Positions 19,991 through 46,231 of a stretch of DNA of 46,231 nt are shown here, one piece after another (position 1 is the first letter of the stretch; every line of letters starts with the position of its first letter). A program made the position numbers and the translations under genes. The stretch is from assembly GCA_029266455.1 (NCBI GenBank), contig JAQSWV010000017.1, positions 1 to 46,231 of the forward strand, in the 5' to 3' direction. The DNA is from Nocardioidaceae bacterium. Lineage in GTDB: Bacteria; Actinomycetota; Actinomycetes; Propionibacteriales; Nocardioidaceae. The notes beneath the pieces were generated by a model. That model saw nothing but the letters and a program-made list of their open reading frames with translations, made no database searches and was not told the DNA's origin.

Positions 19991-20131
19991 GTCAACGATC
20001 CGCGACTTGCGCAGGCAACGATCCGCGACTTGTGCAGGCGCCACCGACCCCCGCCGCCGCCCCCCGTCGACGATCCGCGACTTGCGCAGGCGTCACCGAC
20101 CCCCAGGTCGACGATCCGCGACTTGCGCGGG
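19991..20131 (+). repeat. repeat cluster A: four copies, forward
   Basis: Copies at 19991-20015, 20016-20038, 20066-20090 and 20107-20131 share CGATCCGCGACTTG flanked by GTCGA/GTCAA on the left and (T/C)GCAGG or GCGGG on the right. The first two abut; the others are separated by Pro-like CACCGACCCCC spacers of 27 and 16 bp. Confidence 0.95.
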
Positions 20132-20686: not shown

Positions 20687-20834
20687 CCTGCACAAGTCGC
20701 GGATCGTCGATCTGTGGGGACTCGAGCTCTGCACAAGTCGCGGATCGTCGACGAGGGTGGGTCGAGCTCTGCACAAGTCGCGGATCGTCGACTGGGGGTG
20801 GGATGGGTCCCTGCACAAGTCGCGGATCGTCGAC
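20687..20834 (-). repeat. repeat cluster B: four copies, inverted
   Basis: Copies at 20687-20710, 20729-20752, 20769-20792 and 20811-20834 are the reverse complement of cluster A (CTGCACAAGTCGCGGATCG with GTCGAC or GTCGAT following). Spacing is regular at 40-42 bp. Spacers are G-rich and of 16-18 bp. The last copy ends 15 bp from the fabI stop. Confidence 0.95.
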
Positions 20835-20849
20835 GAGGGGTGGGGCGGG

Positions 20850-35317: not shown

Positions 35318-35325
35318 CCCGCCCG

Positions 35326-35423
35326 GACGTCATACAACGCGCCGCGGGTACGCCACCAGCGGTATGACGTCCGCCGGGGCGTCATACAACGCGCCGCGGG
35401 TACGCCACCAGCCGTATGACGTC
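35326..35423. repeat. two REP-like palindromic elements (copies 3 and 4)
   Basis: Copy 3 spans 35326-35371 and copy 4 spans 35380-35423. GACGTCATAC and GTATGACGTC form a 10-bp perfect stem in copy 3, and the inner sequence AACGCGCCGCGGGTACGCC is identical in both. Reverse-complemented, they align closely with the pair at 9342-9448. They lie between the convergent permease and kinase genes, where a transcript hairpin could end or protect either mRNA. Confidence 0.85.
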
Positions 35424-35433
35424 CGGGCGGGGG

Positions 35434-45122: not shown

Positions 45123-45947
45123 CTACTGCCCCGAAGGCCGCCTCCCCGCCGTTCCGGGGCCGTCGAACACGGCCACCCGCACGGCACAGGCGGCGACGGC
45201 CGCATCGTCGAGCACCCGGCGACGTGGATCGGGCACGTCCAGGCGCCGACCCGCCACCGTCAGCCGGGCACCGGTGCGTTCGAGGCCGGCCAGGGTGTCC
45301 CGGAGCAGCAGCCGATCGCCACCGGTGACCAGCAGTCGCTGGCCGCCGAGCCGGTCACTGGGCCGGTCACTGGGCCGGTCACTGGGCCGGTCACTGGGCC
45401 GGTCACTGGGCCGGTCACTGGGCCGGTCACTGGGCCGGTCACTGGACCGGTCACTCGGCTGCACGCTGTGCCGGGCGCCGAAGAGCTCTGCGGCCGCGCT
45501 CACGGCCGCGTCGACCACGGTGTCGGCCTGCCGCGCCCGCCGACGGGCGTAGCGCTGCTGGCTCCACCCGCCCGCCTTGGTGCGTCCCTGCACGTACCTC
45601 GTGCCGACCCGGCTGGCACCCACCCGCACCCCCTCGGCCAGGGCGACCGCCCAGCCCCCACGGCGCACGAGCAACAGCGCGTACGGGTGCGGGCGCAGCG
45701 CCCACTCCACCAGGCCGGCGACGTCGTCGTACGCGGCTGGGTCGTCGACGACCAGCTCGCACACGGCCGTGGTGCCGTCGGGAGCCACGAGCAGGGGACG
45801 GCCGTTGTTGTCCCGGCACAGGTCGGGTGCGCCGCCGTGGCCGGCGGTGAAGCGGTCGACCCAGCCGCCGAGACGGTCGGCCGGCACGGTGGCCCGCCGC
45901 GACGGCGCCTGCCCGCCGCGACGGCGCCTGCTGCCGGGCCCCGCCAC
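45123..45947 (-). CDS. acVLRF1-type peptidyl-tRNA hydrolase, start region disrupted
   Basis: Actinobacterial Vms1-like release factor that frees nascent chains from stalled large ribosomal subunits. The signature VGASRVGTRYVQGRTKAGGW followed by SQQRYARRRARQ, with the catalytic glutamine, is intact. A run of nine SDRP-type tetrapeptides, encoded by a 12-bp repeat, is inserted before the last domain. The natural start is probably the ATG at 45993, 6 nt after a TACGTT box. A 19-bp tandem duplication at 45892-45929 now puts that ATG out of frame. Removing one copy restores QQAPSRRATVPADRLGGW. As it stands, only internal starts such as the GTG at 45947 can make the protein (274 residues). Confidence 0.8.
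   Translation of the reverse strand: MAGPGSRRRRGGQAPSRRATVPADRLGGWVDRFTAGHGGAPDLCRDNNGRPLLVAPDGTTAVCELVVDDPAAYDDVAGLVEWALRPHPYALLLVRRGGWAVALAEGVRVGASRVGTRYVQGRTKAGGWSQQRYARRRARQADTVVDAAVSAAAELFGARHSVQPSDRSSDRPSDRPSDRPSDRPSDRPSDRPSDRPSDRLGGQRLLVTGGDRLLLRDTLAGLERTGARLTVAGRRLDVPDPRRRVLDDAAVAACAVRVAVFDGPGTAGRRPSGQ
45351..45458. repeat. 12-bp tandem repeat, nine units, in acVLRF1 gene
   Basis: Nine consecutive units of CCGGTCACTGGG; the first seven are identical and the last two carry single or few changes. In frame it encodes SDRP/SDRS tetrapeptides on the minus strand. Confidence 0.97.
45892..45929. repeat. perfect 19-bp tandem duplication
   Basis: GCCCGCCGCGACGGCGCCT occurs at 45892-45910 and again at 45911-45929 with no mismatch. 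Nineteen is not a multiple of three, so it shifts the acVLRF1 frame. Confidence 0.97.
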
Positions 45948-45999
45948 CCGTGCCGAGGGGTTCCTCGCCCCGATCCGAGCCCCCGCCGTCCATCCACCG

Positions 46000-46005
46000 A
46001 ACGTA
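46000..46005 (-). promoter_or_regulatory. -10 box TACGTT of acVLRF1 gene
   Basis: TACGTT on the minus strand, 6 nt before the ATG at 45993. This ATG enters the acVLRF1 frame only if one 19-bp unit is removed. Confidence 0.5.
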
Positions 46006-46015
46006 CTGCGGGCGC

Positions 46016-46102
46016 GCGGCGTGCGAGACTGCCGCCGACCTGGCGCGGCGTGCGCGGCTGCCCCGGACGTGGCGCGGCGTGCGAGACTGCCGCCGACCTG
46101 GC
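46016..46102. repeat. 29-bp tandem repeat, three units
   Basis: Units at 46016-46044, 46045-46073 and 46074-46102. Units 1 and 3 are identical and contain GTGCGAGACTGCCGCCGACC; unit 2 differs at several positions. The block lies in the gap between acVLRF1 and the last partial gene, just upstream of the acVLRF1 -10 box. Confidence 0.93.
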
Positions 46103-46139
46103 GCGTTGCGCCGGCCTCGACCGCTGGGAGTTTGACCGG

Positions 46140-46231
46140 GTGACTGCAGGAGCCGTCGGGCCGGCTGCGAACGGCCTCACACCGTACGTCCATGCGGGCG
46201 GCCTGGAGCTGCTGGTGCCGGGACGCTGGGA
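46140..46231 (+). CDS. start of an unidentified gene, cut by window end
   Basis: An open frame from GTG (46140) that runs off the window: VTAGAVGPAANGLTPYVHAG, then GLELLVPGRW. Too short to assign to a family. No ribosome site or clear -10 box was seen, so even its reality is uncertain. Confidence 0.35.
   Translation, partial: MTAGAVGPAANGLTPYVHAGGLELLVPGRW

Follow-up and report, generated by a model that had tools for sequence, protein, structure and literature searches.

The window analysed here, 46,231 nt in length, is the entire contig C77, one of 128 contigs in a draft assembly of 3.43 Mb. Its minus strand carries a gene that, by its sequence, is acVLRF1 (actinobacterial/chloroflexi Vms1-like release factor 1), as the initial annotation had proposed. 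Both the domain PF18859 (E = 8e-31; 107.4 bits, cutoff 27.1) and the family model NF041024 (169 bits, cutoff 125) score above their curated cutoffs, and over the conserved region the coding signal of the gene is normal, with no stop codon. The product contains the motif GGWSQQR, and the relatives that we read show GGWSQQR or GGQSQQR. It also shares with the family a short N-terminal extension, as described in PMC6514570; however, the leader is longer here and unconserved, and an in-frame (PSDR)n array separates two conserved blocks. The congener G001 lacks this array, its two blocks being joined without an insert. In the window, the exact part of the array (96 bp) falls just under the inferred k-mer size of the assembly (k = 99), and more copies than assembled may therefore exist. 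Among solved structures no useful structural relative emerged; the best match (9ufe, chain CA) aligns to the low-complexity linker.

Matches to acVLRF1 were obtained in 50 of 58 genomes in the first search and in 274 of 341 genomes of the family. The gene lies near a cluster of genes that we take, from their sequences, to be suf-like. This neighbourhood recurs in G035 and G001, and a large-scale chimeric join at the locus was therefore judged unlikely. In G035, the GTG of acVLRF1 follows immediately on the end of a suf-like gene (TGAGTG). Between acVLRF1 and the suf-like cluster of the present genome, a divergent gene (46140-46231 and L002:8-547) has a weak match to DcrB (E = 3e-4, below the cutoff).

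At the upstream end of the conserved region, a unit of 19 bp, GCCCGCCGCGACGGCGCCT, is present in two exact and adjacent copies, and the match continues for two further bases (Table 1). The perfect duplication noted at the outset is thus confirmed and slightly extended. Scanning for the unit with up to two mismatches returned these two sites only, compared with an average of 0.03 sites in shuffled sequence, so that chance does not explain the duplication. The contig ends 301 bp beyond it. The duplication is absent from G001, one congener among the 341 family genomes searched, and was seen in none of the acVLRF1 relatives inspected. Folding of the repeat as DNA and of the start region as RNA was ordinary for their composition (z = −0.14 and −0.64, respectively).

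Table 1. Features of the acVLRF1 locus (positions in the window).
Feature	Position	Strand	Remarks
acVLRF1 conserved coding region to stop codon	45123..45899	-	NF041024 position 1 at about 45899; strong coding signal
12-bp array	45350..45459	.	9.2 copies; encodes (PSDR)n; keeps frame
GTG, in frame	45885..45887	-	9 residues before conserved Trp; would cut conserved N-terminal motif
19-bp unit, copy 1	45892..45910	plus-strand order	exact
19-bp unit, copy 2	45911..45929		exact; two more matching bases to 45931
GTG, domain frame in two-copy sequence	45945..45947	-	29 residues to conserved Trp; weak, distant SD-like GAGGA
ATG, likely leaderless start	45991..45993	-	out of domain frame while two copies present
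TACGTT, -10-like box	46000..46005	-	6 nt before ATG 45993
Contig end	46133..46231		exact 99-bp overlap with contig C114

Reading frames and candidate start codons

The conserved domain sits in a minus-strand frame of 356 aa, in which the match to NF041024 begins at residue 99, where the duplication ends. Ahead of the conserved Trp, this frame offers only three ATG, GTG, or TTG codons, i.e., ATG 46193, GTG 45947, and GTG 45887. ATG 45993 instead opens a frame of 180 aa (MDGGGSDRGEEPLG...) that crosses the conserved domain out of frame and runs to 45451. As 19 is not divisible by three, the two frames join only when a single copy of the unit is present, and the arithmetic of the initial annotation is correct on this point. 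With one copy, 38 residues precede the Trp from ATG 45993; with two copies, 29 residues precede it from GTG 45947, which keeps the whole conserved domain. An SD-like sequence, CGAGGAAC, lies 12 nt upstream of GTG 45947 (duplex energy −5.9 kcal/mol). Codon usage in the 62 nt before the duplication was best in the frame of ATG 45993 (0.39 versus −3.65 and −8.05), a weak margin that is small beside those of true genes and does not separate this segment from non-coding DNA. A change in the copy number of the 19-bp repeat would alter the reading frame, as in a phase-variable switch, whereas one in the 12-bp array would not. The nine-unit array had also been suspected of slippage; it is present, but its unit is a multiple of three, which rules it out as the cause of the frame change.

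All 128 loci in a comparison of N-termini matched acVLRF1. Once duplicates and the locus of the window itself were removed, the conserved Trp could be placed in 106 relatives and not in three. An in-frame stop codon occurs within 30 codons before the Trp in 41 of the 106, and in 101 a start codon precedes the Trp by 12-30 residues, which indicates that the leader of the family is short and unconserved. It was fair, in this light, to state initially that with two copies the enzyme has to begin internally or else is lost, as GTG 45947 is in frame and its distance to the Trp falls within that range. No relative inspected shows a sequence resembling VAGPGSRRRR, the longer N-terminus of the 45947 frame, whose presence in homologues had been named at the outset as grounds for refutation.

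ATG 45993, 6 nt from a −10 box, had been predicted as the natural start, and this prediction holds up well. Leaderless genes are common in Actinobacteria and have TANNNT about 12 bp ahead of the start codon, according to Zheng et al. (PMC3160421); TACGTT, the 6-nt gap, and the ATG reproduce this box and spacing. Across 731 kb of the genome, 26 of 367 first starts (7.1%) have TANNNT in front of them at a gap of 6 nt; the share is about 0.04% for 8063 internal start codons and 0.27% for 739 out-of-frame start codons close to starts. When gaps of 6-8 nt were tested in the relatives, 27 of 106 combined a TANNNT box, at a gap of 6 or 7 nt, with an acVLRF1 start codon located 14-25 residues from the Trp. 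The rates in the 731 kb, the published arrangement, and its recurrence among relatives together suggest that ATG 45993 is likely a real, leaderless start, although, unlike in known leaderless genes, it is out of the domain frame in the assembled two-copy sequence. A sigma-70 promoter scan, which requires a −35 box, gave no match. Directly upstream of the TACGTT box, the divergent promoter region contains a 29-bp array (46014-46105; 3.2 copies, 84%). Compared with the 19-bp pair, this array is the likelier place for copy-number effects on expression.

Exact duplications near contig ends

We surveyed exact tandem duplications (unit of at least 13 bp, at most 2.25 copies) in a sample of 1,086,610 bases (32% of the genome). 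Of the 20 simple two-copy cases, seven fall in the outermost 500 bp of a contig, a zone that holds 7.5% of the sampled bases (p = 4e-4); this 500-bp limit was chosen once the first cases were known, and in the second batch alone one of two qualifying cases was near an end. Removal of the 19-bp duplication of the window left six of 19 (p = 0.002), additional removal of arrays in the last 100 bp left five of 18 (p = 0.004), and the excess persisted across copy limits from 2.1 to 3.0 (p from 0.007 to 1e-5). Expressed as rates, 86 duplications per Mb occur within 500 bp of contig ends and 12.9 per Mb in the interior, compared with 12.5 per Mb in the finished relative G023 (400 kb) and 15.2 per Mb in the draft congener G001 (132 kb). 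The near-end rate thus exceeds both the interior rate and that of a finished genome, a pattern expected of local assembly errors. The sampled sequence contains no N runs. Exact 99-bp overlaps join five pairs among 162 contig ends, including C77/C114, and the start of contig C4 also has one; an overlap of 99 bp is what short-read assemblers with a maxK of 99 or 100 are expected to leave (PMC10914622).

Judged by the codon usage of their flanks, two duplications in the sample break a reading frame, one in contig C20 (374-412, locus L182; 19 bp) and one in C4 (431-462, locus L137; 16 bp). Both are perfect and begin 374 and 431 bp from the contig starts, respectively. None of 13 interior duplications broke a frame by the same test. 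The 19-bp duplication of the window was not flagged either, because the DNA upstream of it lacks a clear coding signal. For the C20 gene, the pieces on either side of the duplication are in one frame in seven of nine relatives, the later piece alone was found in the other two, and none of the nine has the pieces in two frames. For the C4 gene, whose product is presumably LytR-CpsA-Psr-like and has a poorly conserved C-terminus, both pieces share a frame in one of 11 relatives, while two gave weak unlinked matches and eight had no match to the later piece.

Other repeats were observed away from the locus. Tandem arrays at 19993-20039 and 20688-20844 occur in both orientations with the common core AAGTCGCGGATCGT and form a dispersed repeat family. 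Tandem repeats of 52 bp and 63 bp (35319-35425 and L152:4923-5101) share the core GACGTCATAC and have coding flanks on opposite strands; they are possibly REP-like elements.

Origin of the second copy

The initial annotation had left three outcomes side by side, a reversible switch, a recent knock-out, and an assembly error. The last of these is the best supported, and on balance we favour a local assembly or consensus error near the contig end as the source of the second 19-bp copy; the underlying reads would then carry one copy. Local errors in metagenome assemblies, such as duplicate sequence kept at overlapping scaffold flanks and wrong local repeat counts, are documented by Chen et al. 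(PMC7111523). The present case resembles them in that a short, perfect duplication lies close to the end of a contig, in a draft assembly whose contig ends have k-sized overlaps, but differs in having no N gap beside the duplicate. Several points speak against an error. At 40 bp, the array does not reach the inferred k of 99, and a plain de Bruijn assembly should therefore have resolved it; moreover, real repeats and strain variation may gather at contig ends. The 38-residue leader from ATG 45993 exceeds the 14-25 residues of the 27 relatives with a leaderless-type start, and the continuation of the C4 gene after its duplication is confirmed by a single relative of 11. The main rival is a genuine recent tandem duplication in the lineage, which is possible, though we think it rather unlikely; the putative leaderless start would now be out of frame, and the enzyme lost or weakly made from GTG 45947. 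The perfect unit points to a recent event, ATG 45993 is spaced from its promoter box as real starts are, and in the two-copy sequence GTG 45947 is in frame, with the whole domain retained. Tandem arrays are also numerous in this genome (103 with a TRF score of at least 60 in 731 kb, compared with six in a shuffled copy). However, frame-breaking duplications cluster at contig ends with none found inside contigs, and the remainder of the acVLRF1 gene is without decay.

It is improbable, in our judgement, that two copies are the normal state, with the protein made from GTG 45947 and the ATG with its TACGTT box coincidental or serving transcription only. The 29 residues from this GTG to the Trp come close to the maximum of the range in the family and an SD-like site is available, but that site is far upstream, the segment before the duplication scores best in the frame of ATG 45993 (by the small margin given above), and TACGTT followed by 6 nt and ATG is rare by chance. 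A reversible on/off switch, in which slippage would add or remove one 19-bp copy, toggle the leaderless start and the rescue enzyme, and create a subpopulation without acVLRF1, found no support and appears very improbable. The unit length is suited to it, as a step of 19 bp shifts the frame and the one-copy form would bring ATG 45993 into frame, and copy number of tandem repeats in promoters is phase-variable in M. tuberculosis, as reported in PMC12817950 for repeats that likewise lie near a promoter and a start codon. Here, by contrast, there are only two copies, no copy-number variation and no second allele in the one assembly, and the duplication is in no relative inspected; the 12-bp array of the same gene keeps its frame. 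Similar gene-breaking repeats lie close to contig ends in two unrelated genes, which indicates a general artefact or mutation and not a selected switch; for the 19-bp repeat, an assembly slip or an ordinary mutation is accordingly more probable than a genetic switch.

If the second copy is an assembly error, the real locus would be an ordinary acVLRF1 ribosome-rescue gene. Its mRNA would probably be leaderless, transcribed from TACGTT and opening with ATG 45993, and the N-terminal leader of the protein would be specific to the lineage and unconserved. Pseudogenes or switches should then not be deduced from short perfect duplications that lie within about 500 bp of contig ends. If the duplication is real, a rescue factor that is widespread in the family (274 of 341 genomes) would have lost its start in one lineage.
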